Positions 20,440-39,990 of a stretch of DNA of 39,990 nucleotides are shown here, piece by piece. Both the position numbers and the translations under genes were made by a program. Source of the DNA: Oscillospiraceae bacterium (GTDB taxonomy: Bacteria > Bacillota > Clostridia > Oscillospirales > Oscillospiraceae); contig CACYOR010000013.1 of NCBI GenBank assembly GCA_902775985.1, positions 1-39,990 on the forward strand, written 5' to 3'. The notes beneath the pieces were generated by a model that saw only the letters and a program-made list of their open reading frames with translations, was not told the DNA's origin and ran no database searches. Each line of letters starts with the position of its first letter. The first letter of the stretch is position 1.

Positions 20440-20580
20440 GCTCACAAGGAACTTGTGATTCAAAGGGCTTGGGAGATTTCCCAACAAGCAGAAAACGCAC
20501 AGATCCGCCGGAGCGGAAATGCGCGTTTTTCGCATATGGCGCGCCATAAGCATTGCTTGCGACTTTTGTCGCAGCAAGGT
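20440..20580. other. oriT-like hairpin-rich remnant of a mobilisation region
   Basis: Within 140 bases are several short hairpins: CACAAG-GAA-CTTGTG (20440s), TTGGGA-gatt-TCCCAA (about 20468-20483), TCCGC-CGGA-GCGGA, and a bulged 10-bp stem at 20553-20577 with TGCGAC-TTTT-GTCGCA. The GGGCTTGGGAGATTTCCCAA-type sequence resembles stretches upstream of MobA/MobL relaxase genes in Firmicute mobilisable elements. No relaxase is present here. This rests on remembered resemblance and is an inference. Confidence 0.45.
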
Positions 20581-20676
20581 TTGTGGCCACACATGCATTG
20601 CTTGCTGGTAGAAAATCCAGTCATTGAAATAGTTCCGTTTCGATGGTAATATTGATATGAGTTATCCCCTATACTG

Positions 20677-21660: not shown

Positions 21661-21688
21661 TTGACACTCACTCCCAATGTGATATAAT
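21661..21688 (+). promoter_or_regulatory. Perfect-consensus sigma-A promoter of the small mobile-element ORFs
   Basis: TTGACA (21661-21666) and TATAAT (21683-21688) both match consensus exactly, with a 16-base spacer. Transcription would start at about 21695, just before the hairpin leader. Confidence 0.85.
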
Positions 21689-21698
21689 ACACGCAAGC

Positions 21699-21747
21699 AA
21701 AATGCAGACGCCCATCAAGCCCATGGCTTGACAAGCGCCTGCATTTT
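21699..21747 (+). repeat. Hairpin leader repeat, copy 1
   Basis: A 49-base element: outer arms AAAATGCAG and CTGCATTTT, and an inner perfect stem TCAAGCC-CAT-GGCTTGA. A second copy at 39911-39958 keeps the outer arms and the fold but differs in the inner loop. It is the 5' leader of the transcript from 21661 and could act as an attenuator or structured RNA. Confidence 0.85.
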
Positions 21748-21768
21748 CCGTTTCTTGAGAAAGGAGCC

Positions 21769-21996
21769 ATGCCGTCAGCAACAGATTGTCCGTCCACCCA
21801 CAACTGCACCTTAAAAATTTCATACCGAACCGGAGGGAACAACCAGCTTGGGCCGCAGGAAAAAGCCAATCAACAATTCCGGTATTCCGCAACACGAAAT
21901 CGAGCACATTGCCCGGTGTATCCTCCCCGACATCCTCGCCTATTACGAAAGCGAAGAAGGCCAGCGGGAGTTCCGGGAATGGCAGGTTCAGCGTGA
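21769..21996 (+). CDS. Possible small leader ORF overlapping the 64-aa gene
   Basis: A 75-codon frame with an excellent ribosome site (GAAAGGAG six bases before ATG) directly after the hairpin leader. The first 25 residues (MPSATDCPSTHNCTLKISYR and onward) look protein-like with two cysteines, while the rest is arginine/proline-rich and overlaps the next gene in another frame, as shadow sequence does. It may be a short translated leader that couples to the TTG-started gene at 21848. I do not recognise it. Confidence 0.4.
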   Translation: MPSATDCPSTHNCTLKISYRTGGNNQLGPQEKANQQFRYSATRNRAHCPVYPPRHPRLLRKRRRPAGVPGMAGSA

Positions 21997-22042
21997 AGCA
22001 GGACAGACGGAAGGAAAGGAAGGGAAGGGGAAAAGTAAGTAA
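21848..22042 (+). CDS. Small recombinase-associated mobile-element protein (64 aa)
   Basis: A small basic protein beginning MGRRKKPINNSGIPQHEIEH and containing ILPDILAYYESEEGQREF. It resembles short unnamed proteins that I recall next to serine recombinases in Clostridia elements; the function is unknown. The start is TTG at 21848 with GGAGGG ten bases upstream. A helical core followed by a Lys/Glu-rich tail suggests a small nucleic-acid- or protein-binding factor, but that is a guess. It has its own strong promoter, hairpin leader and terminator, yet no recombinase follows here; the nearest lies 1.9 kb away on the other strand. Confidence 0.7.
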   Translation: MGRRKKPINNSGIPQHEIEHIARCILPDILAYYESEEGQREFREWQVQREAGQTEGKEGKGKSK

Positions 22043-22054
22043 TTGACCGAACAG

Positions 22055-22077
22055 GGTGCCGTCAGTTTGGCGGCACC
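22055..22077 (+). terminator. Terminator of the small mobile-element gene
   Basis: GGTGCCG (22055-22061) pairs with CGGCACC (22071-22077) and is followed by TTTTCT. Confidence 0.85.
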
Positions 22078-22103
22078 TTTTCTCATACAGCAGGCACCTC
22101 CGC

Positions 22104-22201
22104 TCACGCATTTAAGGGGCAAAAAAGCGGCTGACAGCAATGCTTTCTGGGCGCCTTTTTGATCAGGGAATACAATTAAAAACGGCCTTCTAAATGCGTG
22201 A
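22104..22201. repeat. 98-bp unit with 11-bp inverted ends, copy 2
   Basis: Begins TCACGCATTTA (22104-22114) and ends with its exact complement TAAATGCGTGA (22191-22201). Its ends and the AAAACGG..TTCTAAATGCG right flank match the unit at 21263-21367. The two units bracket the small ORF and its promoter. Confidence 0.65.
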
Positions 22202-22328
22202 ATTTTCCAAATCTGCCCCTCGTTCCATCCGTCATCCCCTTGATAGAATGAATGATTGGTAGGTCAGTATTTGATTAAGCAACCTGAATTTAGGGGCTCC
22301 TTATCATTGGCAATGGATTCATGGATTC

Positions 22329-24656
22329 TCATTCCAGCCTCAGCATCCATTGCAGTACCTGACGTGCGTTTTCTATCAAAGTGTTCCGGGAGATCAATCC
22401 CAGTTCCATGGCCTTTTGCAATCGTCTAAGGCTGCCGTGGGGCATGCGCACATTGTTGCCCGCCAGAGCCTCCCGATAGTGCTCCGCCCAGTTGCCCCAG
22501 TCTGTCACCACAAGGCCGTCGTAGCCCCACTCCTCCCGGAGGATCCCGGTCAGCAGTTCCTCATTTTCCGAGGTATAGGTACCGTTCAGCAGGTTATAGG
22601 CGGTCATAATGCTCCAGACGTCACTCTCTTTTACAACGATTTTAAATGCCTTCAGATAAATCTCTCGCAGTGCCCGTTCAGAAACCCGGGAATCGCTTGC
22701 GTATCGGTTGGTTTCCTTGTTGTTGCAGCAGAAGTGTTTCACACAGGCGGAAACATTTTGGGACTGGATCCCCCGCACCATGGCGGCGGCCAGCTTTCCC
22801 GCCACCAGCGGGTCCTCCGAATAGTATTCAAAATTCCGGCCGCACAGGGGACTTCTATGGATATTGATGGCAGGGGTCAGCCACATACCGATGTTGTTCT
22901 CCAAAACCTCTTTCGCGCCCGTCTGGCCCACCGCATAGATCAGTTCCGTGTCCCAAGTGCAGGCAAGCAGCGTTGCCACCGGCCAGGCTGTGGTTTTCAC
23001 CCCTCGGTCGGGGACGATCCGAAGTCCGGCAGGGCCGTCGGCGGTCATCACCGCCGGAATGCCCAGATAGTCCAGTCCGCCGATACCCCTTGTATCTGCC
23101 ACGCCCCGGTTGGGAGTGCCGCCCAGCAGGGTAATCAGCTCGTCATCCGTCAGACTTTCCAGGAACGCTTCCGTGGTCACTTCACCGGAGGCTGCCTGTT
23201 CAAAATTCAGCCGCCCTTCCGGAATTTTGATACCTCTGGAATCGGGCAGGATGTGTTCGGCATCCCAGCTGTGCTTCTCCGGCCATCCGGCGGTGTCGTA
23301 CAGGGTTGGATACTCGCCGGTTTCCAGATCCTCGAAGCTGCCGTCCGCTTTCAGGCGGCGGGGCAGCTTGGCAGGAACGCAGCGGTTCTTCACCTGCTCC
23401 GTGATCCGCTCCGCTTCATTGACAAAATGACCCACCTCTTCCAGAGCGCGGACACAATTTCCCACCAGAATCGTGTAGCTTCCCGCCGGCAATACAAAAG
23501 CTGCCAGCTTTTCATCGTAGGCGGCAAGCTCGGCGGTGGGGAAGGTCAGGGTCAATTCCTGCGCCTGGCCCGGCTGGAGCAGCCGGGTCTTTTGGAATGT
23601 CCGCAGTTCCAGCTTCGGCATGTCGAGACGGCATTGGGGCGCGGAAGAATAGATCTGCACCACTTCCCGGCCCGCCGTATTTCCGGTGTTGGTTGCCCGG
23701 ACAGTGACAGAAATTTCCTCGTCATCTCCTTGCGAAATCAGCGGTTCCAGACGGAACGTGGTGTAGGACAGGCCAAAACCAAAGGGATAGTTGACTTTCT
23801 CCGCCGCACCGGGGATCGTCTCAAAATATCGGTAGCCCACGAAAATATCCTCGGTGTAGCAGACATAATCCCTGGATTCATTGAAGCCGGCCGAGGAGGG
23901 ATAGTCGTCAAAAGATGCCGCGAAGGTATCCGTCAGCTTGCCGGAGGGGTTTACGTCGCCGCAGAGGATATCTGCCTCCGCCATAGCCCCCTCCATGCCG
24001 CCCTGCCAGGCCAGCAGCACGGCGCCGATCTTTGGATTACAGGCAAACCAGGAGGTGTCCACCATGCCGCCCACATTCAGGACGACCACAATCCGGTCAA
24101 AACGGGCACAGACATCCGACACCATCTTTTGTTCTTCCAGTGACAAGTAGAAATCGCCGTCGTTTGGCTCCCCCTTACGATCCCAGTCCTCGGCAGAAAA
24201 CCGGCAGATGCTGATAACAGCGGTATCGCACTCCATCGCCGCCTGCTCAAGAAGTGCCGCAGGTATCTCCGGCTCCACAGTAAACCCCGGTTCTTTCCCC
24301 GCCGCCCGCTGGCTTGCCACATTTTCCCGGTAGAATTCATGCAGCGGAGCAAAAATATTCACCTTTCCCTCTGCCGCCTTTTCCTCCATGCCATCGCAGA
24401 GGTTTCGGACATAGGCCACGGTCACGTTGCCGCTTCCGCCGCCGCCTTTCACATAGTCCACGCTGGCCTTGCCGAACAGTGCCACGCGGCTTCCCCGTTT
24501 CAGGGGAAGCAGACGGTTTTCATTTTTCAGAAGTACCATACCCTCCGCTGCCACTTTCCGGGACAGCGCAATATGTTCCTTTGAACCAGTCACGATTTTC
24601 CCATCCTCGCCCAAAGGCCGCACGGGCATGAATTTGTATCTCTGCCATTTACTCAT
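22329..24656 (-). CDS. Glycoside hydrolase family 3 (beta-glucosidase type), permuted domain order
   Basis: A 775-residue cytoplasmic beta-glycosidase. The order is reversed relative to most GH3 enzymes: the alpha/beta sandwich domain comes first (AAEGMVLLKNENRLLPL near residue 40, then the Gly-rich KGGGGSGNV), a fibronectin-like domain follows (about 310-410, NTGNTAGREVVQIY), and the TIM barrel comes last, with the nucleophile Asp719 in VVTDWGNW. This layout is known for some rumen and gut Firmicutes enzymes. Exo-acting beta-glucosidase or beta-xylosidase activity is likely; the substrate cannot be fixed. The start at 24656 has AAGGAG seven bases upstream. No signal peptide is present. It lies downstream of the GH2 gene, separated by a MITE-like repeat. 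Confidence 0.93.
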   Translation of the reverse strand: MSKWQRYKFMPVRPLGEDGKIVTGSKEHIALSRKVAAEGMVLLKNENRLLPLKRGSRVALFGKASVDYVKGGGGSGNVTVAYVRNLCDGMEEKAAEGKVNIFAPLHEFYRENVASQRAAGKEPGFTVEPEIPAALLEQAAMECDTAVISICRFSAEDWDRKGEPNDGDFYLSLEEQKMVSDVCARFDRIVVVLNVGGMVDTSWFACNPKIGAVLLAWQGGMEGAMAEADILCGDVNPSGKLTDTFAASFDDYPSSAGFNESRDYVCYTEDIFVGYRYFETIPGAAEKVNYPFGFGLSYTTFRLEPLISQGDDEEISVTVRATNTGNTAGREVVQIYSSAPQCRLDMPKLELRTFQKTRLLQPGQAQELTLTFPTAELAAYDEKLAAFVLPAGSYTILVGNCVRALEEVGHFVNEAERITEQVKNRCVPAKLPRRLKADGSFEDLETGEYPTLYDTAGWPEKHSWDAEHILPDSRGIKIPEGRLNFEQAASGEVTTEAFLESLTDDELITLLGGTPNRGVADTRGIGGLDYLGIPAVMTADGPAGLRIVPDRGVKTTAWPVATLLACTWDTELIYAVGQTGAKEVLENNIGMWLTPAINIHRSPLCGRNFEYYSEDPLVAGKLAAAMVRGIQSQNVSACVKHFCCNNKETNRYASDSRVSERALREIYLKAFKIVVKESDVWSIMTAYNLLNGTYTSENEELLTGILREEWGYDGLVVTDWGNWAEHYREALAGNNVRMPHGSLRRLQKAMELGLISRNTLIENARQVLQWMLRLE

Positions 24657-24673
24657 TTCCATTCTCCTTGTTT

Positions 24674-24840
24674 TAGGGCAACACCGCATAATTCGGCAAG
24701 GAAGCTCAGCGAGAGATTTTGTGCCATTTCAAAGTTTCAAAAACGGGGGAATACTGTATGTATTTCCCGTTTTTGGAACTGCAGAAATGGCGCAAAAGAT
24801 CCGCTGAGATCCGCTGACGCAATTGTGCGGTGTTGCCTTA
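24674..24840. mobile_element. MITE-like 167-bp inverted repeat between the GH3 and GH2 genes
   Basis: The two halves are imperfect inverted copies over almost their full length. The left end reads TAGGGCAACACCGCATAATT and the right end, on the other strand, TAAGGCAACACCGCACAATT. The similarity continues through TTTTGTGCCATTTC versus TTTTGCGCCATTTC and AAAAACGGG to the centre. It contains no gene, and TTA flanks both ends, consistent with a short target duplication. A non-autonomous transposable element is likely; as RNA it would fold into one long hairpin. Confidence 0.75.
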
Positions 24841-24912
24841 GATAAACGGTCTGCTTATGTCCGGCATCCTTGGGGGACTGACCGTCGGGAATCTATTGTT
24901 CTTCCTAAATTC

Positions 24913-27669
24913 TCAAAGCCGGAACCGGAAGGAGAAACAGATATCCTTTTCAGCGGAAACCCGATACGCTTCTTCCATATTGGCTCCCCAGCTGTCAATG
25001 CCGCCAACGCCCCGCATGGCGCAGCAGAGCGTCACCACCGTTCTGCAGGGAGCGGGCAGCTCGTCAGCGTGGAAGGCCTCGCTCAGCTGCTGAGGGGTAT
25101 AGGGAATGGCAGAAAAAGCAAAGGGCGCCCCATCCTTTTGAATCGTCAAAGCATGACCCGCCAGACGGAGGATCATTTGGTGGGTGTCCATATGACAGCT
25201 GCACTCCTGGGGAACCAGATAGTCCGCGATGTGTGGCACTTCGCTGTAGGTGCCGAAAATACCGCCCTTCTTCCTGTCCGGGTAGGTTTCCCCGGACAGG
25301 CCGACCCACTCCACCTGTTCGACTGGAACCGGCGTTGCAAACCGCAGGCCGAACAGCGGAAGCTCCGGCCGCCCCTCCATGCCAAAGTAGTGGACATCCA
25401 CTTTCATGCAGCACTCGCTGTCAACGGAGTAAGTTACCTCCGTTTTCAGGCCGGGCATGGCGGGGGCAGTGTAGGTATAGCGAATGGAGACCATATCCTC
25501 CGATTCTTCCAAAACCTGAATGTCGCCGCACTTCTGCCAAGCGTCCACAGCCGCCCAAATGGAACTGGCTGCGGCAAAGCCATTGCCCAAGTCGTTTTCC
25601 GTGGGAGCACGCCAGAAGGCAGGCCGGGGCGCGCGCCACAGCCACTGCTGTCCGTCAGAAATCAGGGAAACCGGGCCGCCCTCCGGATAGGAGAACAGGA
25701 TCTCAAAATTCTTCCCGGAAACCCCCAGTGCGCCGTCGCCGTGCACAATCTTCAGCGGTTGATTTTGTCCGCTTTCCTGCACCCGGAACGCTTCCGCCCC
25801 AGATGCATTGGCAGTGTCCTGCGCTTTCCGGGCTTCTGCGCCGGAATACCAGTAGCGCACCTCCTGCATGGCGGGCTTTTCCCTGCCGTCCGCAAAAACA
25901 ATGCCGTTGCCGCTGAACGCATAGTCGCTCTGCCGCTCGCCAAAGTCTCCGCCGTAGCCCAGAACCTTTTCCCCATTGGCGTTCTCATGCCACAGCGCCT
26001 GATCCATATAATCCCAGATGAAACCGCCCTGATACTGCCGGTATTCTTCTTCCAGACGGATGTAGCTTTCCATGCCGCCCAGAGAATTGCCCATGTCGTG
26101 CATATACTCGCAGAGAAGAAAGGGCTTTTTGGGATTGCTTTGCAGATAGGCCCGAATGGCATCCGGATACGCGTACATCCGGCTTTCCACATCGGAAATT
26201 GCGTCAAAGGCACGGTTGTGGAACACGCCCTCATAGTGAACCAGCCGGCTGGGATCCTGGGCGCGGAAGTAGTCCGCCATTGCCAGAATGTCCTCCCCGG
26301 CGTAGGACTCGTTTCCGCAGGACCAGAACAGGATGGAAACATGGTTTTTATCCCGCTCAAACATGGACATTGCCCGGTCAAGCACGCAGTCCTTCCATTG
26401 AGGGAGGCTTCCGGGAACGTTCCAGCTTGGTTCAATTTTCCCCAGCTTCTGCCAGGAACCGTGGCTTTCCAGGTTCGTCTCGTCCATCATGTAGATGCCG
26501 CTTTGGTCGCACATATGATACCACGGTGTCTGATTGGGGTAATGGCAGGTGCGGACAGCATTGATATGATTGCGGCGGAAGGTCTCCATGGCCCGCTCCA
26601 TATCCTTCATGCCGATGGCACGGCCTGTGCTTGGATTCCATTCGTGACGGTTGACCCCGTGAATCACCAGCCGCTGACCGTTGAGGAGCATGATTCCGTC
26701 CTTTAATTCAAACCGGCGGAAACCGATGTCATAAGGAATTACTTCCAGCACTTCCCCAGAGGCGGCAGTCAGGGTCAGAACCGCATGATAGAGATTGGGT
26801 GTTTCGTGGCACCATGGCTGGATATTGGGGAAGATAAATTCTGGACTGACATGGTATTTTCCGTCAAAGCTCAAAGGCAAATCCTCGTCCATCAGGCCGT
26901 CAATGGCACAATGGAGGGTTACGCTTTCCGTTTCACCGCTGAGGAGCAAACGGATTTTCAGCTTGCCGGTGGTATTGTCCTCCAAAAGCGTGGTTTGCAG
27001 CCACAGGTCGTCCACATTCGCGGCGGGCTTGGCGTAGAGAAACACGCTGCGGAAGATGCCGCTGAACCGGAAGAAGTCCTGATCCTCCAGCCAAGCCGCG
27101 CTGCTGTGCTGATAGACCTCCACGCACAGGCGGTTCCCGGTTTCCCGGACGTAGGGAGTCAGGTCAAAGTCCGAGGGGGTGAAGCTGTCCTCGGCGTAGC
27201 CAACGAAGTGGCCGTTGAGCCAGACATAGAACGCCTGCTCCACACCCTGAAAGGAAATGCACACCCGCTTCCCCAGCAGTCCCGGCTCCAAATCGAACCG
27301 GCGTACATAGCTGCCCACATGGGTATTCTCCCAGTCGATTTCCGGGGGACGAAGTTCCGCGTGGCCATCCCAGGGGTACAGGGTGTTGATGTACTGAATT
27401 TCACCATAGCCCTGCAGCTCCATATGTCCGGGCACCTGAATCGTACCGAAATCGGAATCGTCGAAATCTTCCTGCCAGAAGTCAGCCGGACGCCGCCGGG
27501 GATTTTTGCTCCACGCAAAGCTCCACTGCCCATCCAAGCTCTGGCGCAGGGAGGTTTTTCCCTGTGCCATTTCTTCCGGGTTGGCAAAGCAAATGTGGTC
27601 AGAATGGGCATCCAGCCGGTTGACCCTGAAAACGGTTGGGTCTGTGAGCCAATCCAAATTCGCATTCAT
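24913..27669 (-). CDS. lacZ: Glycoside hydrolase family 2 beta-galactosidase (LacZ type)
   Basis: A 918-residue cytoplasmic enzyme with the LacZ five-domain layout: a jelly-roll sugar-binding domain (about 40-215, including FQGVEQAFYVWLNGHFVGYA), an Ig-like domain, the TIM barrel with acid/base Glu454 in FWSCGNES and nucleophile Glu521 in LLCEYMHDMGN, a further Ig domain, and a C-terminal beta-galactosidase small-chain domain (about 640-915). It hydrolyses terminal beta-galactosides; some GH2 members of this shape act on other beta-linked sugars. The start has GAAGGAG eight bases upstream. It sits 39 bases after the GH43 gene, so it is in the same minus-strand operon. Confidence 0.93.
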   Translation of the reverse strand: MNANLDWLTDPTVFRVNRLDAHSDHICFANPEEMAQGKTSLRQSLDGQWSFAWSKNPRRRPADFWQEDFDDSDFGTIQVPGHMELQGYGEIQYINTLYPWDGHAELRPPEIDWENTHVGSYVRRFDLEPGLLGKRVCISFQGVEQAFYVWLNGHFVGYAEDSFTPSDFDLTPYVRETGNRLCVEVYQHSSAAWLEDQDFFRFSGIFRSVFLYAKPAANVDDLWLQTTLLEDNTTGKLKIRLLLSGETESVTLHCAIDGLMDEDLPLSFDGKYHVSPEFIFPNIQPWCHETPNLYHAVLTLTAASGEVLEVIPYDIGFRRFELKDGIMLLNGQRLVIHGVNRHEWNPSTGRAIGMKDMERAMETFRRNHINAVRTCHYPNQTPWYHMCDQSGIYMMDETNLESHGSWQKLGKIEPSWNVPGSLPQWKDCVLDRAMSMFERDKNHVSILFWSCGNESYAGEDILAMADYFRAQDPSRLVHYEGVFHNRAFDAISDVESRMYAYPDAIRAYLQSNPKKPFLLCEYMHDMGNSLGGMESYIRLEEEYRQYQGGFIWDYMDQALWHENANGEKVLGYGGDFGERQSDYAFSGNGIVFADGREKPAMQEVRYWYSGAEARKAQDTANASGAEAFRVQESGQNQPLKIVHGDGALGVSGKNFEILFSYPEGGPVSLISDGQQWLWRAPRPAFWRAPTENDLGNGFAAASSIWAAVDAWQKCGDIQVLEESEDMVSIRYTYTAPAMPGLKTEVTYSVDSECCMKVDVHYFGMEGRPELPLFGLRFATPVPVEQVEWVGLSGETYPDRKKGGIFGTYSEVPHIADYLVPQECSCHMDTHQMILRLAGHALTIQKDGAPFAFSAIPYTPQQLSEAFHADELPAPCRTVVTLCCAMRGVGGIDSWGANMEEAYRVSAEKDICFSFRFRL

Positions 27670-27708
27670 AATCCATGCTCCTTCGCTGTCATAATGGCAG
27701 TTTTGATT

Positions 27709-29385
27709 CTATCCAAGGCAGAACACATCGCCCCGGATCACACCGTGTTCGTTGAAACAGTCAACACGAACCCATGCCGGTTGCCCTTTGATCAACGCGG
27801 TGATGGCCGCTTCCCGGTAGCCATACACCATTTTGCTGTGGTATAATTTATCCGGGGCATAACCCCAGGAGATACAGGCATTCGCGCCCTCGCCGGACTC
27901 CCAACGGAGAAAGCCATCCAGAGGAAGCCTCCGGCATTCCAGAACCCTCGCCTTTTCGGGGGCCTGACCCTGAGAAATACCGAATACCCGCAGCCCGGAA
28001 ATCCGCGCCGTCTGATGATAGGGCAGTTCCGTCACCGTCAGACGGATATATCTTGCCTGAACCCCTTCCTCCTTCACCACCAGATCGTGGGGCAGATCCG
28101 TATCGCAGGCTCGCTTATCTTCCATAATATCCCATGCTTTTCCATCCATGGACGCTTCCAGCAGCCAGCGGGTGTGAAGAGGCCGATCTTCAATGACCCG
28201 GGGAACCCCCAGGAACTGACTCCACACTGCGTCTTTTGGGGGTTTCACCCGGAGGGCATCATCGGCAAAGTTCACCTGTACCGCATGAACCATGCAGCTT
28301 TGCTCCAGATCCAGGGTCAGCTGGGGACAGGGGTCGGAATCGTCCGCGCTCCACCAGGAGCGGATATTTTCGTCTTCGTCCACAGCCCACTGCGGATGCG
28401 CTCCTGAGCTTGCCCGGACGGGCTTGCCGTAGGAAAGGAGCATCCATTCCGGGTCAGACCAGGCGGGCGCGTCCATGGCGCGGGGCCAGTCACCGAAGCG
28501 CTGGTCGCAGTACAGGACCCCATCGCTGTCAAATCCGGCCTTCCAAAGACCAAGCCGACGTTCGTAGGGATGGGTACAGCTGATCCGCAGAGTGTCTGCG
28601 TGCCAATAGGTGCCATCCCGATCTTTCAAGGTAGAACCGTGGCCGGAGCCGGTGATAAACCCGCCGGGCTGGAAGGAATAGGGATTGCTCGGTGCAGGCT
28701 GGTAGGAGCCAAGAGGCGTGTCCGCCACATAGACCCCATCGGAATAGACGTTGAATTCCGTTCCCGGCGCGGCGTACTGTAAATAATATTTTCCCTTGTA
28801 TTTGGTCATCCACGCCCCTTCAATGTAGGGGGCAGTTCCGTTGGGTCGGTTATCTTCGCCGAAACGCTCAAAGCCGTGCCGTTCCGGCTGACCCCAGATC
28901 AGCCCCGCAGGGGCGCAGAGAGGCTTCATGGTTTCTTTTTCCAATTCAACACCCCAAATCGGGGACGTATTGGTGCAGCCCCAGAAGAAATACAGCCGCC
29001 CGTCCTCATCCTGAAATAAATGAGGATCCCAGAATTCAAAGCTGGCCGGAACCTTTTCAAAGGGGACATGGACGGGATCGGGACTGTGGTAGAACGCGCC
29101 GTTCCTGCCGCCTCTGGAAGCGGAAAACCAAAGCGCTCCGTCAATGACGCACACATCCGGTGCGTAGTCATGGATGGGGATCTCCGCCGTGAAGGGGTGA
29201 AATTCCCAGCTGCACAAATCTGTACTTGTGAAGAAGCCTCCGGTCATAGACGGAAACAGCCAGTAGCGGTCTTTGAAAAAGATCAGGCTGGGGTCAGCCG
29301 CCTCCCGGAACGCGGTATCCACCCCATTGCGGACGGATAACTGATACTTGTAGGGAAGATTCAATGGATTGCAGTAGTATTTCAT
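27709..29385 (-). CDS. Glycoside hydrolase family 43 protein with C-terminal discoidin-like and Fn3-like domains
   Basis: A 558-residue enzyme with a five-bladed propeller (about 20-310). The three GH43 acidic residues are visible: Asp31 in REAADPSL, Asp120 in FWDPHLFQDEDG and Glu189 in YIEGAWMTKYKG. From about 330 to 465 an F5/8 type C-like domain follows (GKPVRASSGAHPQWAVDEDE through YIRLTVTELP), then a short strand-rich tail. Such enzymes remove arabinose or xylose, in some subfamilies galactose, from side chains. The discoidin-like domain is usual in extracellular enzymes, but no signal peptide is present. GAGGGGGAAAC precedes the start, and only 12 bases separate it from the upstream oxidoreductase gene. 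Confidence 0.85.
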   Translation of the reverse strand: MKYYCNPLNLPYKYQLSVRNGVDTAFREAADPSLIFFKDRYWLFPSMTGGFFTSTDLCSWEFHPFTAEIPIHDYAPDVCVIDGALWFSASRGGRNGAFYHSPDPVHVPFEKVPASFEFWDPHLFQDEDGRLYFFWGCTNTSPIWGVELEKETMKPLCAPAGLIWGQPERHGFERFGEDNRPNGTAPYIEGAWMTKYKGKYYLQYAAPGTEFNVYSDGVYVADTPLGSYQPAPSNPYSFQPGGFITGSGHGSTLKDRDGTYWHADTLRISCTHPYERRLGLWKAGFDSDGVLYCDQRFGDWPRAMDAPAWSDPEWMLLSYGKPVRASSGAHPQWAVDEDENIRSWWSADDSDPCPQLTLDLEQSCMVHAVQVNFADDALRVKPPKDAVWSQFLGVPRVIEDRPLHTRWLLEASMDGKAWDIMEDKRACDTDLPHDLVVKEEGVQARYIRLTVTELPYHQTARISGLRVFGISQGQAPEKARVLECRRLPLDGFLRWESGEGANACISWGYAPDKLYHSKMVYGYREAAITALIKGQPAWVRVDCFNEHGVIRGDVFCLG

Positions 29386-29397
29386 AACGTTTCCCCC

Positions 29398-30624: not shown

Positions 30625-30648
30625 GAGGCCACATCCTTTCCAAAACTC

Positions 30649-30654
30649 ATTATA
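30649..30654 (-). promoter_or_regulatory. Extended -10 promoter of the glycosidase operon
   Basis: The minus strand carries TCTGCTATAAT, a perfect -10 with a TGn extension and no good -35, about 25 bases before the oxidoreductase start. The weak -35 fits activation by the AraC-type regulator nearby. Confidence 0.55.
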
Positions 30655-30706
30655 GCAGATGAAGTGGGAGAGAGGGTAGTGCGCTTTTGATACTTTTTTA
30701 CGAATT

Positions 30707-30720
30707 CTTTACCCGTAAAG
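30707..30720. promoter_or_regulatory. 14-bp palindrome in the divergent control region
   Basis: CTTTAC-CC-GTAAAG lies between the divergent promoters. A wider inverted pair, GCGCTTT at 30681-30687 and AAAGCGC at 30718-30724, surrounds it. It is a candidate operator; the binding factor is not known. Confidence 0.45.
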
Positions 30721-30730
30721 CGCGGTTCTC

Positions 30731-30760
30731 TTTACAAAGTGACGAAACCCATTATATAAT
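30731..30760 (+). promoter_or_regulatory. Predicted sigma-A promoter of the sensor-regulator-transporter operon
   Basis: TTTACA (30731-30736) and a perfect TATAAT (30755-30760) are 18 bases apart. The GGAGG ribosome site follows at 30776-30780 before the ATG at 30789. Confidence 0.65.
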
Positions 30761-30788
30761 CCAAATCACAAAGCCGGAGGAACACAAT

Positions 30789-33731: not shown

Positions 33732-33744
33732 GGAGGTTACCCAT

Positions 33745-34701
33745 TTGAAAAAGGCAATCGCGGAAAACCGTTTGCAGCCTCAAAGCCGAGGAAAAGCCGC
33801 AAATCTGTTGAAAACCATCCGAAAGCACTGGATGCTGCTTCTGATGGTGCTGCCAGGGATCCTCTGGTGCGCTGTCTTCCGATACGGCCCCATGTACGGC
33901 GCGCTGATCGCCTTTCAGAAGTACCACATCGGCGACAGCATCCTTACCGGCAACTGGGCGGGACTGTACTGGTTTAAGAAATTCTTCTCCCATCCCCAGT
34001 TCAGGCAGCTCATCACCAACACCCTGGCCATCAGCATTTTGCAGCTGGTTTTTGTATTCCCGGTGCCCATCATTTTTGCGCTGCTGCTGAATGAGGTGCG
34101 CAACACCAAGGTGAAGAAGCTGGTGCAGACCGTTTCCTATCTGCCTCATTTTATTTCCCTGGTAGCGGTATGCAGTATGCTGAATCTGCTGCTCAATCCC
34201 AGCTCCGGCATCATCAATAAGATTCTGAACGTCTTTGGCGTGGAGTCCATCTATTTTATGGGAAGCACGCAGTGGTACCGCCCGGTGTATATCCTCTCCC
34301 AGATCTGGCAGACCTTCGGTTACAGCGCCATCATTTACATCTCGGCCCTGTCCGCGGTGCCTCAGGAGCTGTATGAATCCGCCAGTGTGGACGGCGCTTC
34401 CCGGTTCCGCCAGATCATGACCATCAGCCTGCCCTCCATTATGCCCACGGTGGTCATCATGCTGATTCTGGAGTGCGGAAAGCTGCTGTCTGTGGGCTAC
34501 GAAAAGACCCTTCTGCTCCAGAATTCCGCCAACAATTCCGTGGCGGATATCATCAGCACCTTCGCTTACCGGGTCGGTATGAGCCAGGGTATGTACAGCT
34601 TCGGCACAGCCGTAGACCTGTTTACCGCTGTGATCAACTGCTTGATGGTGTTTGTTGTGAATAAAATCAGCCAACGGGTCTCGGAAACCAGTCTTTGGTA
34701 G
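33745..34701 (+). CDS. ABC sugar transporter permease, LplB/YteP type
   Basis: A 318-residue inner-membrane subunit with six predicted helices. The EAA-loop signature that docks on the ATPase is YESASVDGASRFRQIMTISL (about 211-230). The N-terminal approximately 25 residues are basic and cytoplasmic, as usual in the LplB/YtcP family for complex oligosaccharides. The start is TTG at 33745 with GGGAGG eight bases upstream. It lies 13 bases after the regulator. No ATPase gene is in the locus. Confidence 0.94.
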   Translation: MKKAIAENRLQPQSRGKAANLLKTIRKHWMLLLMVLPGILWCAVFRYGPMYGALIAFQKYHIGDSILTGNWAGLYWFKKFFSHPQFRQLITNTLAISILQLVFVFPVPIIFALLLNEVRNTKVKKLVQTVSYLPHFISLVAVCSMLNLLLNPSSGIINKILNVFGVESIYFMGSTQWYRPVYILSQIWQTFGYSAIIYISALSAVPQELYESASVDGASRFRQIMTISLPSIMPTVVIMLILECGKLLSVGYEKTLLLQNSANNSVADIISTFAYRVGMSQGMYSFGTAVDLFTAVINCLMVFVVNKISQRVSETSLW

Positions 34702-34712
34702 GAGGATCATGC

Positions 34713-35579
34713 ATGATGAAAGACCGTTCGCTTTCTTCCAAGGTATTTGATTTTCTTCTCTTTGCCATGTGCGCGGTGGTTCTGGTCAGCATCATTGCGC
34801 CTGTTCTGAATATCTTTGCCGTATCCTTTTCCAGCTATGACGCTTTTGCCCGGGGCGATGTGAGCTTCTGGCCTGTAGAGTTCAGCCTGGATGCCTATAA
34901 AGCCATTATCCATGACGGCAAGGTGCTGCAGGGTCTGAAATATTCCGTTCTTTACACCGCCTTGGGTACGCTGATCAACGTAATCCTGACGATCCTGACG
35001 GCATATCCCCTGTCCCGTCCCGAAATGCCCTTCCGAAAAACCATTTCCATGTTCTTTGCCTTTACCATGTTTTTCAGCGGCGGCACCATTCCGACCTTCC
35101 TGCTGGTGCAGAAGCTGGGGCTGTACAATACCATCTGGGCCATGGTGATCCCCAATGCCATGCAGGTTTACAACATGATCATTATGCGTACCTTCTTCCA
35201 GTCCATTCCCTTTGAGCTGACGGAAGCGGCGCGGCTTGACGGAGCCAATGATTTTAAGATCCTGTGGGATGTGATCCTGCCTTTGAGTAAGGCTTCCATC
35301 GCCACCATTGCCCTGTTCTATGCCGTCATGCACTGGAATTCCTGGTTCCAGGCCTCCATCTATTTCAGCTCCTCGGATAAGGCTCCGCTGCAGCTGGTGC
35401 TGCGAAATATGGTCATCAACGCGGAGACTCTGGTCAAAAGCGGTGAGGCCAGCAACCTCGGCTCCACCAGCATCAACTATGCAACGCTCTTTATCTCTAT
35501 GCTGCCAATGATGGCACTGTACCCCTTCATTCAGAAATACTTTGTCAAAGGTGTTATGGTCGGCTCTGTCAAGGGCTGA
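34713..35579 (+). CDS. ABC sugar transporter permease, YtcP/LplC type
   Basis: The 288-residue partner permease with about six helices. The EAA loop reads LTEAARLDGANDFKILWDVI and the C-terminus ends in FVKGVMVGSVKG, typical of this group. The start at 34713 follows AGGAGGA with seven-base spacing; an upstream in-frame TTG at 34695 would overlap the preceding gene and has no ribosome site. Together with the permease at 33745 and the lipoprotein at 35612 it makes the membrane part of a sugar importer. Confidence 0.94.
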   Translation: MMKDRSLSSKVFDFLLFAMCAVVLVSIIAPVLNIFAVSFSSYDAFARGDVSFWPVEFSLDAYKAIIHDGKVLQGLKYSVLYTALGTLINVILTILTAYPLSRPEMPFRKTISMFFAFTMFFSGGTIPTFLLVQKLGLYNTIWAMVIPNAMQVYNMIIMRTFFQSIPFELTEAARLDGANDFKILWDVILPLSKASIATIALFYAVMHWNSWFQASIYFSSSDKAPLQLVLRNMVINAETLVKSGEASNLGSTSINYATLFISMLPMMALYPFIQKYFVKGVMVGSVKG

Positions 35580-35611
35580 TTGGAACATATATAAAAAGGA
35601 GGAAAAATTCA

Positions 35612-37228
35612 ATGAAAAAATGGATCGCACTGCTTCTTTGCCTGGCAATGGTGCTGGGCATGACCGCCTGCGGCGGAAATACCGCTGAAGCCCCCACGGA
35701 AGCGCCCACCACCGCCCCTGCCGCTGCCACGGACAGCACCACGGCAGATCCCCACGCAGAGCAGGTTACTCTGACCATCGCTTACAACAAGAAAGGTACT
35801 GACTGCATCGAAAACAACATTCTGGATCAGATCCTGCTGGAAAAGTTCAACATTGTCGTGAACTGGCAGGACCTGGAGGATTCCGACTATGCCACCAACG
35901 TCACATTGCAGATGGCCGGCAACGACTATCCCGACATCCTGTGGCACGCCAACAACTCTCTGGCCCAGGAGCTGAGCCAGACCGGTCACATTCTGGCCGT
36001 GGATGATCTGGAAGACAAGCTTCCCGACTGGATCAAGGTCTTTGACGAAGGCGTGGACGGCGGCTGGGCCTATGTCAAGGGTATGCTCTGCGCCAGCGAC
36101 GGCAAGCTCTACTGCCTGCCCTCCAAGAACCCCAGAAACACCGCTATGTGCTGGCACCTGCGTGCGGGAACCATGCAGGAAATGGGTCTGATCGACAGCG
36201 TTGACGACCTGCCCACCACCGTGGAAGACTTTGTTGCCCTGCTGGAGCAGATCAAGGAAAAGGATCCCGACTCCATCCCCTTCATGGTGCAGGGCTGGGG
36301 CCATGTGTGGGACGGCTGGGACTACGCCTACAACGTCCAGTCCGGCTATTATCTGGATTACTTCTCCGGCGAGTTTGTGCCCTACGGCCCCGCCACCGAC
36401 AACTGGCGTCAGATGCTGATCACCCTGAACTACCTGTATAAGAACGGCCTGATCGCCGAGGATTACCTGACCACCACCGAGGACATGACCAAGGAAAATA
36501 CCATCGCCGGTATGTACTACGCCGAGTGGAACTGGGCCGGTTCTCACACCAACGCCATGAACGAGCGCAACAGCCAGACCGACCCCAACTGCGGCTGGAT
36601 CTACTACCTGAACACCATCGCCGCTGACGACAGCCAGCACGTTTACAACAAGGAGACCCCCTACAAGTCCCAGGGCTTCGTCCTGACCGACAAGCTGTCC
36701 GGCGCGCGTCTGGACCGGGTGCTGGAGTTCCTAAACTGGTGCGCCACCGATGAAGCCTCCGAGATCCTGAGCTGGGGCGAGGAGGGCCTGACCTACACCG
36801 TGGATGCCAACGGCAACAAGAGCTACACCGACCTCATTAAGGACTTTGATACCACTGGCGCTCCTGCCGTCTCCCTGAACGCCTACACCCGCTTCCATCA
36901 GGACTTCATCCCCAACCGGAATGTGGATGCGGTGATCGCCGTCTCCGGCCCCGTCAACATCGAGCTGGGCGATTCCTTCCAGGCCCAGGGCTATGGCTAC
37001 TTCAAGCCTCTGAATTTCCTGTTTGACACCGACACCCAGGAAGAGGTCAACATGCTCAAGACCCTGCTGAACGATACCATGACCGACTACTCCAACAAGT
37101 TCGTTATGGGCATGATGGATCCCAACAGCGATGCCGATTGGGAAGCCTACCTGAGCGCTCTGGACGGCTGCGGTCTGCAGGAATGGAACCAGTACTACAC
37201 CGACTACTACAACGCAAACCTCAAGTAA
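35612..37228 (+). CDS. Lipoprotein sugar-binding protein, YtcQ/LplA type
   Basis: A 538-residue extracellular solute-binding protein. A signal peptide (KKWIALLLCLAMVLG) ends in the lipobox MTAC with Cys20 as lipid anchor, followed by a Thr/Ala/Pro linker (about 23-45) and a large two-lobe binding domain. At about 540 residues it matches the long family that captures oligosaccharides. Codon choice is strongly biased to C-ending codons (AAC, GAC, ACC), a sign of high expression. An excellent AAGGAGG precedes the start, and a GC-rich hairpin follows the stop codon. Confidence 0.95.
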   Translation: MKKWIALLLCLAMVLGMTACGGNTAEAPTEAPTTAPAAATDSTTADPHAEQVTLTIAYNKKGTDCIENNILDQILLEKFNIVVNWQDLEDSDYATNVTLQMAGNDYPDILWHANNSLAQELSQTGHILAVDDLEDKLPDWIKVFDEGVDGGWAYVKGMLCASDGKLYCLPSKNPRNTAMCWHLRAGTMQEMGLIDSVDDLPTTVEDFVALLEQIKEKDPDSIPFMVQGWGHVWDGWDYAYNVQSGYYLDYFSGEFVPYGPATDNWRQMLITLNYLYKNGLIAEDYLTTTEDMTKENTIAGMYYAEWNWAGSHTNAMNERNSQTDPNCGWIYYLNTIAADDSQHVYNKETPYKSQGFVLTDKLSGARLDRVLEFLNWCATDEASEILSWGEEGLTYTVDANGNKSYTDLIKDFDTTGAPAVSLNAYTRFHQDFIPNRNVDAVIAVSGPVNIELGDSFQAQGYGYFKPLNFLFDTDTQEEVNMLKTLLNDTMTDYSNKFVMGMMDPNSDADWEAYLSALDGCGLQEWNQYYTDYYNANLK

Positions 37229-37237
37229 TCCATTTCC

Positions 37238-37268
37238 CCATACCCCGGCGGTTTCCGCCGGGGTATGG
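37238..37268 (+). terminator. Perfect 14-bp hairpin after the binding-protein gene, without T-run
   Basis: CCATACCCCGGCGG (37238-37251) pairs exactly with CCGCCGGGGTATGG (37255-37268) around TTT. No T-run follows, so it more likely stabilises the 3' end of the abundant binding-protein mRNA, allowing partial read-through into the next gene. Hairpins of this kind are common after transporter binding-protein genes. Confidence 0.7.
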
Positions 37269-37288
37269 CAATATGGGGAGGAATTTCT

Positions 37289-39778
37289 GTGACCCACTAT
37301 GATACCATTCTTGTTGGTGCCACCGCCCTTGCACTGGGATACGCCCATCGCGCGGAAGCGGAGGGACGGCACTGCGCCGTGATTGAAGCGGGCTGTATCT
37401 GTATGCCGGAGGTTTCCGCCGCATGGAGCGGGGAAACGTATATGCCTCAGCACCGCTATTCGGATGAAACGGAGCCATTTGTGCGGAAAATGGAGCGGCG
37501 GGGTATTTGCCGGGAAAAACAGCCTGCCTACCCGGAAATGGGCCCCCTGGCCGCCAAATGGTTTGATCATACCGGCTGTGATGTTTGGTTTCTTTCCCGG
37601 GTCACAGAGGTATCCCGGGAGGCGGACGTTTGGAATCTGACAGTCAACACCATCGGCGGCAGCTTCCCGGTAACCGCCGATCACCTGCTGGATACCACAC
37701 CGGACTTTGACCTGCACTGGTTCTTTGGCGAACCTGCGCCGAAGGGAACCCTGGCTCTGACAGTCGCGACAGAAGATAGGTTTGATATTCTCCCTGTGCC
37801 CGATGGATTTTCCATGGCGGAGGCCCGGGCCTCTGTGTGGGAGCATTACCCCCGGAAAATTCTCGCTTTCGCGCCGGCGCTGTCCTTTACAACTGCGGAA
37901 GAGCCCCGTTCGGTTTGGTATCCTTCCAATACAGCGGGAAGTGTGGCGGACGCGATTGAACTGGGACTGCATCTGAATGCGTTTTCCACACCCGTACCCT
38001 GCCGGGGAGAGGTGAAGGAAGAAACGGCCGATATCGTTGTGGCGGGACTGGGGACAGCCGGTTCTATGGCAGCTATCCGGGGCGCGCGGAGCGGCTTGCG
38101 GGTGATGGGAATTGAGCAGCTTGGTTTTCCCGGCGGCACCAATACCGCAGGAGCCATTCAGGGTTACTACGCCGGGGTCAAGGGCGGACTGTATCAGCAG
38201 ATCGACCAACGGGCAAGTGAGATTGGCGACAAGCTTGTTTCCTGTCATGTGGCATACAGCAAGTCTATCGCCCTGCAGGAAGCGTTTTCCCAGGCAAACG
38301 TGATCACAAAATACGATGCCCGGGTCTGCCAGGTTCTGACGCAGGGGCAGCGGGTCGTCGGACTTCTCTATCGTGACGCCGAGGGCTTACACCGGGTTCG
38401 GACGAAAATGGTCATCGACGCCACAGCGGACGGTACGGTCTGCCGCCTGGCCGGATGCGAAATGCTCCCGGGCCGGGAAAGCGACGGCGGCTTTATGACA
38501 TTTTCCAATACCTGTCAGTATTATGACCGTACACGGAAGCGAATGTGGTGGGATAATCGGGATAACGGAATTCTGAACCAGTATGATCCCATCCAAATGG
38601 GGCATCAGCTGCTGCATTCTTCCTGGGAGGACAACCAGCTTCCCCCGGTGCCGGACTCCAACAAACGGTATCTTGGCATCGCACCCCTGATTGGCATTCG
38701 TCAGGGGCAGCGGATTTTGGGCGAAGAAGTTCTGGCCTTTTCTGATTTCCTGCAAGGACGGTTGACACAGCAGCCCATTTTCTGGTGCCGCACCAATCTG
38801 GACACCCACAACAAGGAATTCGCGCTGGAGGATCGGCTGCTGCGAAGCTGGTTCACCATCGGCGGAATGTGGGGCTGGAATGTGGGCGTGCCCGTTGGCG
38901 TGGGAACCCTGATTCCAAAGGGATGGGGAGGCATTCTGGCTGCCGGAAGGTGTCTGTCCTGTGATCACAATTTCTCTCAGGGGGTACGCATGATGGACGA
39001 CTGCTCCAAGTCCGGCGAGGCGGCGGGGGCATTGGCGGCGCTTTCCATAGAACTGGGGGAAGCGCCGAATAAGGTTTCCTACGAATTGCTGAAAGCAAAG
39101 CTGGAAGAAACGGCCTGCATCAAATCCGGGGACTGCCTTCGTATCGAGCGTCAGGGAAAGGAGCCTCTGCGTCTGCGAGCGGACAGTTTTTCCGAATTAT
39201 GGCTGGAGGAATGGGAGATTGTGGAACAGTTGGGAACCGATTGCCCGGGCTACGCCATCTGGTCCGCGAAAATTCGGGGCAGAAGCAGTATCCCGATGCT
39301 GCGAGCCGCGCTGTCATCGGAAGATCCGCTTCTTCGCTGTCATGCCGCACTGGCCCTCAGCCTGCTGGACGATGCTTCCGGCGAGGATATCCTGCTGGAT
39401 ATGGCAATGGATCGTTCCGGGAGCGCGCCGGACACCAGCTATATGTACGTCATGCCCTATGCCGTCTCCGCGATCTCTGCCCTGGGGCGGCTGGGAAGCA
39501 GGAAAGCCATTCCGGCGCTAATGGAAATTCTGGAGGATCCCTTTCACCGCTTTGAGGCTCAATGGAACCGGCTGATCACAAACGAGGAAGATGCTGCTTT
39601 CCAATTTGCGTCCCACGCCGTTTCGGCACTGGCAGAAATTGAAGCAAAACATCCGGGCTGCGTCCCGCTGAAACAAATTCAGGCTCTGCTTTCACAGCCG
39701 GATTATCCCGGCAACGTTACCATGATGGGTACATCCAAAAGATGGAATTTCCGGGATGCCCTAGCGAAGCTGATTTGA
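37289..39778 (+). CDS. Large FAD-dependent oxidoreductase with two Rossmann-like modules and HEAT-like tail
   Basis: An 829-residue protein. Residues 1-235 begin YDTILVGATALALGYA and contain HCAVIEAG, a degenerate Rossmann start lacking the normal glycine spacing. A second, canonical FAD domain starts at about 247 (IVVAGLGTAGSMAAIRGARS, with GIEQLGFPGGTNTAG) and carries DATADGTV and the family C-terminal GGILAAGRCLSCDHN. The final 180 residues (about 640-829) are helical repeats of HEAT type (IPMLRAALSSEDPLLRCHAA, KAIPALMEILED). The start is GTG at 37289 with GGGGAGG seven bases upstream. It is the last gene of the transporter operon and has no signal peptide, so it works in the cytoplasm, presumably on imported sugar. 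Confidence 0.82.
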   Translation: MTHYDTILVGATALALGYAHRAEAEGRHCAVIEAGCICMPEVSAAWSGETYMPQHRYSDETEPFVRKMERRGICREKQPAYPEMGPLAAKWFDHTGCDVWFLSRVTEVSREADVWNLTVNTIGGSFPVTADHLLDTTPDFDLHWFFGEPAPKGTLALTVATEDRFDILPVPDGFSMAEARASVWEHYPRKILAFAPALSFTTAEEPRSVWYPSNTAGSVADAIELGLHLNAFSTPVPCRGEVKEETADIVVAGLGTAGSMAAIRGARSGLRVMGIEQLGFPGGTNTAGAIQGYYAGVKGGLYQQIDQRASEIGDKLVSCHVAYSKSIALQEAFSQANVITKYDARVCQVLTQGQRVVGLLYRDAEGLHRVRTKMVIDATADGTVCRLAGCEMLPGRESDGGFMTFSNTCQYYDRTRKRMWWDNRDNGILNQYDPIQMGHQLLHSSWEDNQLPPVPDSNKRYLGIAPLIGIRQGQRILGEEVLAFSDFLQGRLTQQPIFWCRTNLDTHNKEFALEDRLLRSWFTIGGMWGWNVGVPVGVGTLIPKGWGGILAAGRCLSCDHNFSQGVRMMDDCSKSGEAAGALAALSIELGEAPNKVSYELLKAKLEETACIKSGDCLRIERQGKEPLRLRADSFSELWLEEWEIVEQLGTDCPGYAIWSAKIRGRSSIPMLRAALSSEDPLLRCHAALALSLLDDASGEDILLDMAMDRSGSAPDTSYMYVMPYAVSAISALGRLGSRKAIPALMEILEDPFHRFEAQWNRLITNEEDAAFQFASHAVSALAEIEAKHPGCVPLKQIQALLSQPDYPGNVTMMGTSKRWNFRDALAKLI

Positions 39779-39910
39779 ACTGGCGTAAATGACCGTTCCT
39801 ATCTGCATTCTTCACAAAAATTGCATCAAAAGTGATTACGGGACAGCAGATTTTTTACCTCACAATGCCGACATCGTGACCGCACCCAATACGCTATCAT
39901 ACAATCAGTC
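39779..39910. other. Non-coding downstream flank of the island
   Basis: No gene is supported. The last 35 bases resemble the promoter region at 21661: CCCAAT and a TATCAT (39895-39900) in the place of TATAAT, but the -35 is poor (GTGACC) and the spacing to it is short. A frame at 39789-39983 crosses the hairpin repeat and looks random. Confidence 0.5.
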
Positions 39911-39958
39911 AAAATGCAGACGCCGGTCAAGCCGCAGCTTGACAAGCGCCTGCATTTT
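39911..39958 (+). repeat. Hairpin leader repeat, copy 2
   Basis: The same element as 21699-21747: outer arms AAAATGCAG and CTGCATTTT, shared TTGACAAGCGC, and inner stem TCAAGC-CGCA-GCTTGA. The loop has changed while the pairing is kept. By analogy, another small mobile-element ORF and perhaps a recombinase should follow just beyond the window. Confidence 0.85.
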
Positions 39959-39990
39959 CCATTTTTATACTGATATTCAATAGAAAAGCC

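Follow-up and report, generated by a model that had tools for sequence, protein, structure and literature searches.

Among IMEs, insertion at tRNA 3′ ends is described as a trait of the tyrosine-recombinase type, and the site-specific serine type as disrupting genes (excerpt of PMC5704250). Serine recombinases that use a tRNA gene are called rare, the cases given being Mycobacterium AICEs (tRNA-Leu) and the phage phiRSM1 (tRNA-Ser) (excerpt of PMC3218068). The ssrA islands of Dehalococcoides (DsiB) combine insertion in an RNA gene with metabolic cargo, tandem islands and islets devoid of an integration module; the 3′ end of their serine recombinase gene overlaps attL, and its stop codon lies outside the island (excerpt of PMC3146451).

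The stretch of DNA analysed here, the window, makes up a whole contig (39990 bases). Its element and six complete relatives resemble serine-recombinase IMEs such as Tn4451 in having a serine recombinase at one end and a very short core common to both junctions, and a MobA/MobL relaxase occurs in five of the six relatives. Unlike these IMEs, the family is found at tRNA 3′ ends, and the window copy yielded no relaxase. With DsiB, as excerpted, it shares the placement of the 3′ end of the large serine recombinase (LSR) gene at attL, an RNA-gene target, metabolic cargo and islets; DsiB differs in its tmRNA target and two serine recombinases, and the excerpt mentions neither DUF6061 nor the 64-aa gene ORF64 described below. 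The AICEs are conjugative elements of actinobacteria and phiRSM1 is a filamentous phage, whereas the window family appears to use Leu, Glu and Val tRNAs. CIMEs and tandem accretion provide a parallel for the islets, which lie at tRNA ends without a recombinase and have a matching attachment half; of the att pair that defines a CIME, the far half was not recognised in the islets. No description of the LSR family was found among the literature matches listed, and DUF6061 gave none.

Recombinase end, cargo and copies in other genomes

The element begins on the left, at about 18489, with the 3′ end of its LSR gene, where CACCA forms the junction with a host terminator (Table 1). The LSR frame does not stop at this junction but extends into the host DNA, staying open to 17512. 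In the genomes G025 and G081 a similar terminator hairpin adjoins the 3′ end of tRNA-Leu(CAA), providing empty sites (L179 and L180). Terminators themselves had been considered as the insertion target and were replaced by the tRNA 3′ end after these empty sites. The LSR appears to insert the element at tRNA genes, and the complete members of its family sit at the 3′ (CACCA) end of such genes.

Table 1 Features of the window (positions in bases of the contig)
Feature	Position	Strand	Basis and remarks
Host intrinsic-terminator hairpin left of element	18445–18489		Inverted repeat I8
Left attachment half	18489–18513	−	Core CACCA 18489–18493 + GGTTCGGATTTGGATTGC (minus-strand reading); recurs in recombinase family
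Large serine recombinase	18496–19962	−	Pfam Resolvase, Recombinase and Zn-ribbon domains; full-length
Cro/C1-type HTH regulator	19959–20315	−	Pfam HTH_3; overlaps LSR start
DUF2079 membrane protein, N-terminally truncated	20677–21213	+	Pfam match limited to profile 275–457 of 459
Left boundary repeat of hairpin unit	21262–21367		Ends ACGCATTTAG .. CTAAATGCG; repeat scan
Promoter of hairpin unit	21661–21688	+	TTGACA 21661–21666, 16-nt spacer, TATAAT 21683–21688; read from sequence, conserved in alignment
Hairpin copy 1 (49 nt)	21699–21747	+	Starts 10 nt past −10 box; predicted to begin near +2 to +4 of transcript
Shine–Dalgarno AAGGAG and ATG of short leader ORF	21761–21771	+	Leader ORF weakly conserved
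ORF64, 64-aa gene, TTG start	21848–22042	+	Homologues; codon-position differences
Terminator-like hairpin 3′ of ORF64	22055–22081	+	Read from sequence
Right boundary repeat of hairpin unit	22106–22203		ACGCATTTA .. CTAAATGCGTGA
Last homology to tRNA-end islets	22204–22277		Sugar locus begins here; DUF6061 gene of islets absent
GH3	22329–24689	−	Pfam
LacZ-type GH2	24913–27669	−	Pfam
GH43	27709–29385	−	Pfam
FAD oxidoreductase	29398–30624	−	Pfam
Histidine kinase, split in two frames	30687–32060 and 31816–32499	+	Pfam
AraC-type response regulator, two ABC permeases, binding protein, FAD oxidoreductase with HEAT repeats	within 30687–39778	+	Pfam
Copy-2 region	39885–39964	+	TATCAT −10-like box 39895–39900, hairpin 39911–39958
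Hairpin copy 2 (48 nt)	39911–39958	+	Within the 39885–39964 match to the copy-1 region

Pfam scanning of 33 distinct window ORFs, the first 10 kb included, found the LSR as the only recombinase; it lies 1.7 kb to the left of hairpin copy 1 on the opposite strand. The original prediction had placed the island between, or next to, two related recombinase modules, which is at odds with this single gene. The window gave no MobL match, and no relaxase domain was detected among the ORFs submitted to Pfam; the window thus shows no relaxase of the kind that an IME would carry, although such a gene could lie past 39990. The DUF2079 ORF is, judging from its truncation, probably a gene remnant.

The 18 kb between the two hairpins hold a single sugar-utilisation locus, as had been proposed: glycoside hydrolase, regulator and ABC transporter genes were all recognised by Pfam. 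The proposal that this island is mobile cargo is likewise supported, by the serine recombinase at its left end and by its left part, whose surroundings differ in each of the three genomes that have it. Genome G023 carries 10.3 kb of the island (99.4% identity over 9401 bases and 99.2% over 866), with an LSR 100% identical over 489 aa, and G199 carries 11.5 kb (97.6% over 9231 bases and 95.9% over 2249). Besides the LSR, these near-identical parts cover the hairpin unit and the beginning of the cargo. The flanks differ among the three contigs, pointing to different insertion sites, and the G023 junction lacks CACCA. Of 102 genus genomes (own genome counted), 93 have matches to the host genes that lie left of the island; in G023 the identity is 75–77%. 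Such a distribution, among what are draft assemblies, indicates that the element has moved between species. Window positions 29953–39990 have no near-identical match in G023 or G199, where this part gave only short matches of 66–75% and the copy-1 hairpin. Two contigs bear RUG labels, which suggests an origin in rumen metagenomes.

The hairpin unit and its relatives at tRNA ends

The recurrence of the hairpin with outer stem and fold kept and the inner part altered, as originally predicted, was confirmed by sequence, BLAST and folding alike. A BLAST search of the own genome aligned 39885–39964 with 21673–21753 at 83% identity (E 6e-16), the match covering the −10 region upstream of the hairpin. 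The two copies have the same outer stem, AAAATGCAGACGC / ACAAGCGCCTGCATTTT, and differ only in the inner stem and the loop. They fold with z-scores of −5.9 and −6.7, none of 200 shuffles being equally stable, and a gapped stem pattern run on the own assembly matched these two hairpins only. The similarity also appears as D3 and D10 in the repeat listing.

The hairpin was thought to be the leader of a recombinase; it belongs instead to a unit of about 0.95 kb (21262–22203) in which promoter, hairpin, ORF64 and terminator follow one another. The hairpin begins 6–10 nt past the −10 box in all 11 copies aligned. The differences by codon position in ORF64 (54/69/326 over 45 pairs) indicate that the gene is under purifying selection, and structure prediction returned a two-helix model (pLDDT 79.6). 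The terminator-like hairpin behind ORF64 is retained in nine of ten other aligned copies, with one stem change in L160, and is absent in L159.

Since the transcript should start just a few nucleotides before the hairpin, the latter would most likely cap and stabilise the ORF64 mRNA, with no role in recombination. A DNA-level site (an oriT, or a binding site for a recombinase or regulator) or a minus-strand terminator appears doubtful by comparison, if the least doubtful of the rival readings. It draws on the minus strand, which folds more stably in all nine copies folded because A·C mismatches turn into G·U pairs; the copies are too alike for covariation to distinguish the strand, and the asymmetry resembles a state inherited once, not covariation that arose repeatedly. 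Against it, the hairpin model scored at best E 0.26 in the six complete LSR elements, five of which have the relaxase, and the tight spacing to a sigma-70-type promoter would be left unexplained.

Searching 394 genomes of the order with a covariance model of the hairpin gave matches in seven genomes besides the own (E 2e-4 to 8e-3 per genome), where about four matches at E ≤0.01 are expected by chance. For the loci that went into the model, a match follows from its construction. Sixteen of 27 loci found with the hairpin pattern were excluded as unrelated palindromes, by eye, as they lack the shared promoter and leader. Rfam gave no match for the hairpin or elsewhere in the window, and seven other sources yielded only tRNAs and a SAM riboswitch. 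In viral contigs the full hairpin pattern had no match, and an ORF64 search gave 14 pattern matches with none confirmed; four short-pattern matches were judged from their sequence to be chance.

Outside the island, the unit was found, whole or in part, at nine loci. In seven the unit, pointing toward the tRNA, lies at a tRNA 3′ end with TCCGAACC immediately behind it, and five lie beside DUF6061, which has no match anywhere in the window. The match to the window begins at 21261–21265 in eight loci and within the unit in the ninth (L143); it stops at 22262 (L143, L160), at 22277 (L145) and earlier in the other six (BLAST). One attachment half is present in seven of these islets, the far half not being recognised. 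Within the 2 to 8 kb available per locus, tblastn found no relative of the window recombinase or of MobL in any of the nine, which gives no support to a standing pairing of hairpin and recombinase module. A composite transposon would have a recombinase for each bracketing repeat; one was found in the window, which is not led by the hairpin, and no relative of it in the outside loci.

Both ends were visible in six of 22 recombinase loci (25 stretches) examined for ends, many contigs stopping short. These six complete relatives have an LSR-family recombinase at one end, a tRNA (called in five) or tRNA-like 3′ end (the sixth) at the other, and CACCA at both junctions. All contain LSR, HTH and ORF64 homologues (one ORF64 partial), five MobL and five DUF6061, the latter at the tRNA end. 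In all six the HTH gene is located upstream of the recombinase, next to it or no more than about 0.9 kb away, and in five ORF64 lies between MobL and HTH. The right-end motif was absent from L216 with L217 (about 37 kb past the LSR) and from the long stretches L212, L222 and L225–L227. One LSR family appears to use Leu, Glu and Val tRNAs within one genus, a type of target called rare for serine recombinases (excerpt of PMC3218068).

Copy 2 and the far end of the element

Combining these data, we consider it likely that the sugar locus is cargo of an LSR-driven integrative element of the tRNA-3′-end family, with its right end inferred. The window offers full-length LSR domains and a defined left attachment site, and copies of the element sit at different insertion sites (the G023 junction being without CACCA). 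As the window is the whole contig, and hairpin copy 2 ends 32 bases before its end, sequence past 39990 could not be read. Copy 2 has the position and direction expected of a tRNA-end unit and probably sits near the far end of the element, beyond the assembly. Because that end is not assembled, we infer the role of copy 2, which would be the same kind of ORF64 unit at the right end. It has no recognisable −35 box and no left boundary repeat, and the 26 bases following it could be diverged leader. The missing part should then hold an ORF64-like gene, perhaps a minus-strand DUF6061 gene, the right attachment half and tRNA-Leu(CAA), all within about 0.6–1.0 kb as in six islets. The right half is expected to carry GGTTCGGATT, and a circular junction would join it to CACCACGGCAATCC. 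The family provides attachment halves that are open to testing.

The original interpretation is supported in part: a relation of the hairpins to a boundary agrees with the layout of the tRNA-end islets, but copy 1 is internal to the element. Copy 1 may be an older tRNA-end unit left inside when two elements fused by tandem insertion and deletion, the second of which would have brought the sugar locus in.

It is unlikely that copy 2 is an unrelated stray hairpin region in host DNA or another islet, the element ending between 29.9 and 39.8 kb and the bracketing being coincidental. Near-identical DNA is indeed missing to the right of 28833 or 29952 in the two other genomes, and the similarity of copy 2 to copy 1 is limited to 80 bases, with a weak promoter in copy 2. 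Still, the series of regulator, transporter and oxidoreductase genes extends as far as 39778, and the copy-2 hairpin follows after 132 bases, in an orientation that suits a tRNA-end unit. The DNA beside it looks accessory, as the last cargo gene has only partial and weak matches in the other 100 genus genomes (29–53% identity, E 5e-16 at best).

A small independent mobile element of about 0.95 kb with ends ACGCATTTAG / CTAAATGCGT, inserted twice, is quite improbable: the left boundary recurs in eight outside loci and a right boundary at 22178–22277 in seven of nine, and the end motifs are inverted, but the same relation to tRNA and attachment half in seven and to DUF6061 in five is unexpected for independent insertion, L156, L159, L160 and L164 have their left flanks in common too, and copy 2 lacks the left boundary repeat.

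The contig with the missing right end was not found in the own genome, where the other ORF64 homologues lie solely beside the recombinases of contigs C28 and C58 and the only DUF6061 in C28. The tRNA-Leu(CAA) of this genome (C57) adjoins other genes, and the 10 kb read for its ylbJ-like gene (C44) contain no tRNA. The arrangement of G025 is therefore not simply restored; neither contig was confirmed as the other flank of the island.

Under the preferred reading, cargo of a tRNA-end LSR element, one family member has taken the sugar genes from one species to another, and such transfer offers a concrete way for carbohydrate loci to spread among Clostridia. We regard it as quite improbable that ORF64 is an excision (directionality) factor or relaxosome partner whose separately promoted, hairpin-capped extra copies at tRNA ends permit capture in trans. 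If so, these copies would let recombinase-less islets and cargo move in trans, shuffling sugar loci in tRNA-end arrays between species. The plasmid records gave no match to the hairpin region, and phage records were searched with the ORF64 protein only. The protein itself matches eight phage and two plasmid records at 42–63% identity, and two uncharacterised small proteins, ORF64 and DUF6061, are linked here to mobile elements.

Left end of the island and its transfer between genomes

The sugar-utilisation island opens on its left with a large serine recombinase (LSR; coordinates in the table). At the end of the recombinase gene stands GGTTCGGATTTGGATTGC, with a CACCA core after it; the reading frame of the gene runs on into host DNA. 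Similar ends, i.e. CACCA followed by varied sequence and often a terminator hairpin, recur in recombinases of the genus. G023, a genome from another species of the genus, carries window 18495–28833 at 99.2–99.4% identity at a different site, while the ordinary genes left of the island are 75–77% identical between the two. A second genome, G199, holds window 18487–29952 at 95.9–97.6% identity, inserted in a gene of the small-protein family DUF6061. Because every junction falls inside one contig, with flanks that differ, the junctions hold whether or not the binning is right. Thus, the recombinase at the left end and the near-identical stretches elsewhere bear out the original prediction in treating the island as movable cargo. 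The left junction in G023 lacks the CACCA core, probably due to a later small deletion. Indels distinguish the three island copies near the 3′ end of the GH43 gene, with 72 bases unmatched against G023 and ~160 extra in G199. A sensor histidine kinase is split across two overlapping frames, through a genuine frameshift or through a fault in the assembly.

Coordinates of features in the window (plain numbers) and in other loci (L-numbers)
Feature	Position	Strand	Remark
Housekeeping genes	first 10 kb		e.g. glutamine synthetase, H+-pyrophosphatase
Host terminator	18445–18489		
Large serine recombinase	18496–19962	−	ORF
Hairpin, copy 1	21699–21747	+	
ORF64	within hairpin unit		64 codons, TTG start
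End repeats of hairpin unit			ACGCATTTAG / CTAAATGCGT
Indel region	27704–27967		
Split histidine kinase	30687–32060, 31816–32499		
Hairpin, copy 2	39911–39958	+	
Complete element, own contig C28	L039		tRNA-Glu called at end
Complete element, G035	L183		tRNA-Leu called at end
Complete element, G038	L182		tRNA-like 3′ end at right junction
Complete element, G032	L215		tRNA-Val called at end
Complete element, G049	L220		tRNA-Glu called at end
Complete element, G067	L224		tRNA-Val called at end
Other cargo between MobL and DUF6061	L183:11251–17091, L039:6272–14755		includes a 1946-aa ORF and other large ORFs
Arrays of terminator hairpins / partial tRNA 3′ ends	L188:1565–1800, L178:2490–2740, L180:1–300, left flanks of L096 and L039		

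The hairpin unit and ORF64

The recurrence of the hairpin was confirmed, with an identical outer stem and a changed inner part. The two copies align over ~80 bases from the −10 region to just past the stem (83%, E 6e-16), and folding compared with shuffles gave z −5.9 for copy 1 and −6.7 for copy 2, the latter standing 32 bases before the end of the 39,990-base contig that constitutes the window. A gapped stem pattern matched only these two copies in the own genome. Scanning the genome_contigs collection (one genome per species, 84,980 species) for the stem pattern returned 27 loci, 16 of which are unrelated palindromes. The other 11 are true relatives with promoter, stem and leader as in the window; two belong to the island copies in G199 and G023 (L142 and L153), and nine lie outside the island. 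Among these nine, the match to the window starts at 21261–21265 in eight (in L143 within the unit; with a gap in L145) and ends at 22178–22277 in seven, L156 and L159 diverging earlier (22081 and 22018, respectively). The unit so delimited comprises TTGACA-16-TATAAT, the hairpin 10 nt on, a ribosome site, ORF64 and a terminator. Differences between ORF64 homologues fall mostly on third codon positions (54, 69 and 326 at positions 1, 2 and 3, 45 pairs), and no Pfam or NCBIfam model matched ORF64 at the limits used.

The stem begins 6–10 nt past the −10 box in 11/11 copies and hence within a few nt of the expected transcript start. ORF64 would be expressed from its own predicted promoter, and the 5′ stem would probably shield its mRNA, a protective role known for 5′ stem-loops in general. 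The minus-strand fold is stronger than the plus-strand fold in 9/9 copies. This asymmetry seems to be one inherited set of A·C positions, and a minus-strand role for the hairpin is possible.

Islets and complete elements at tRNA ends

In seven of the nine outside loci the unit sits a short way downstream of the 3′ end of a tRNA; the remaining two, L150 and L159, extend only 932 and 499 bases past the hairpin. ARAGORN called the tRNA in six of the seven (five Leu, one Arg), and L145 shows a tRNA-like 3′ end. These islets run from the ACCA of the tRNA through sequence with TCCGAACC, then TTCGGATT, a DUF6061 gene and the unit, whose ORF64 points toward the tRNA. The DUF6061 gene is present in L143, L145, L149, L160 (where Pfam named the family) and L164; in L156 no more than the beginning of one is visible, and L155 has none. 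Downstream of several tRNA 3′ ends, terminator hairpins and incomplete tRNA-3′-end sequences form short arrays with GCACC(A) between the members, which look like serial small insertions at one core.

G025 and G081 each have a counterpart of the host terminator beside the island, and in both it abuts the 3′ end of tRNA-Leu(CAA). As the LSR end takes the place of this tRNA beside the window terminator, the tRNA would be expected at the opposite end of the element. Ends were read in 25 stretches, i.e. 22 recombinase loci picked for long contigs and three extensions. Both ends were found in six of the 22, delimiting elements of about 7 to 17 kb with recombinases 57–75% identical to that of the window. 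Each has the LSR end on one side and CACCA with TCCGAACC on the other. In five, the relaxase MobL, an ORF64 homologue, an HTH gene and the recombinase follow one another in this order at one end, and DUF6061 lies at the end with the tRNA; L224 carries the HTH gene and the recombinase, and its ORF64 homologue, close to the tRNA, is only partial. None of the other 16 loci revealed the two ends together, and many of their contigs stop; no right end appeared in ~37 kb of L216 with L217, or in 13–18 kb of L212, L222, L225, L226 and L227. After several recombinase ends (including L085, L088, L101 and L109) come CGTCARAA.. segments that resemble one another and contain inner inverted repeats; in L085 and L101 a second end motif follows. 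The layout is suggestive of stacked elements or small cassettes.

Across the six complete elements a hairpin model produced no hit with an E below 0.26, and the hairpin is thus no regular component of the recombinase module or the attachment site. For the window's recombinase and for MobL, tblastn detected no relative in 9/9 outside loci, other recombinase types being judged only from ORF listings. The two related recombinase modules proposed to flank the island therefore found no support; the hairpin is a feature of tRNA-end islets.

Position of copy 2 and comparison with known systems

Copy 2 lies to the right of the cargo, and its position and direction are those of an islet unit if tRNA-Leu lies to its right. 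Copy 1 points the same way and is internal; its homology to the islets does not extend past 22277, close to the expected place of their DUF6061 gene. The simplest history would have two related units at one tRNA, joined through a deletion, and the sugar locus between the two. Recombination by the LSR between CACCA cores would probably insert and excise the element as a whole, thereby moving the sugar locus. G023 and G199 do not cover the copy 2 side. Other ORF64 homologues in the own assembly are those beside the recombinases of contigs C28 and C58, and its only DUF6061 gene is in C28.

Serine-recombinase IMEs are known in Firmicutes, tRNA 3′ ends being given as tyrosine-recombinase targets in the accessible text of PMC5704250, and that of PMC3218068 describes tRNA genes as a rare insertion target of serine recombinases. 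The relaxase expected of an IME was not found in the visible sequence of the window element. The nearest parallel is provided by the ssrA islands of Dehalococcoides, for which the available portion of PMC3146451 describes a recombinase gene that likewise overruns attL and, as in the family of the window, islets devoid of an integration module.
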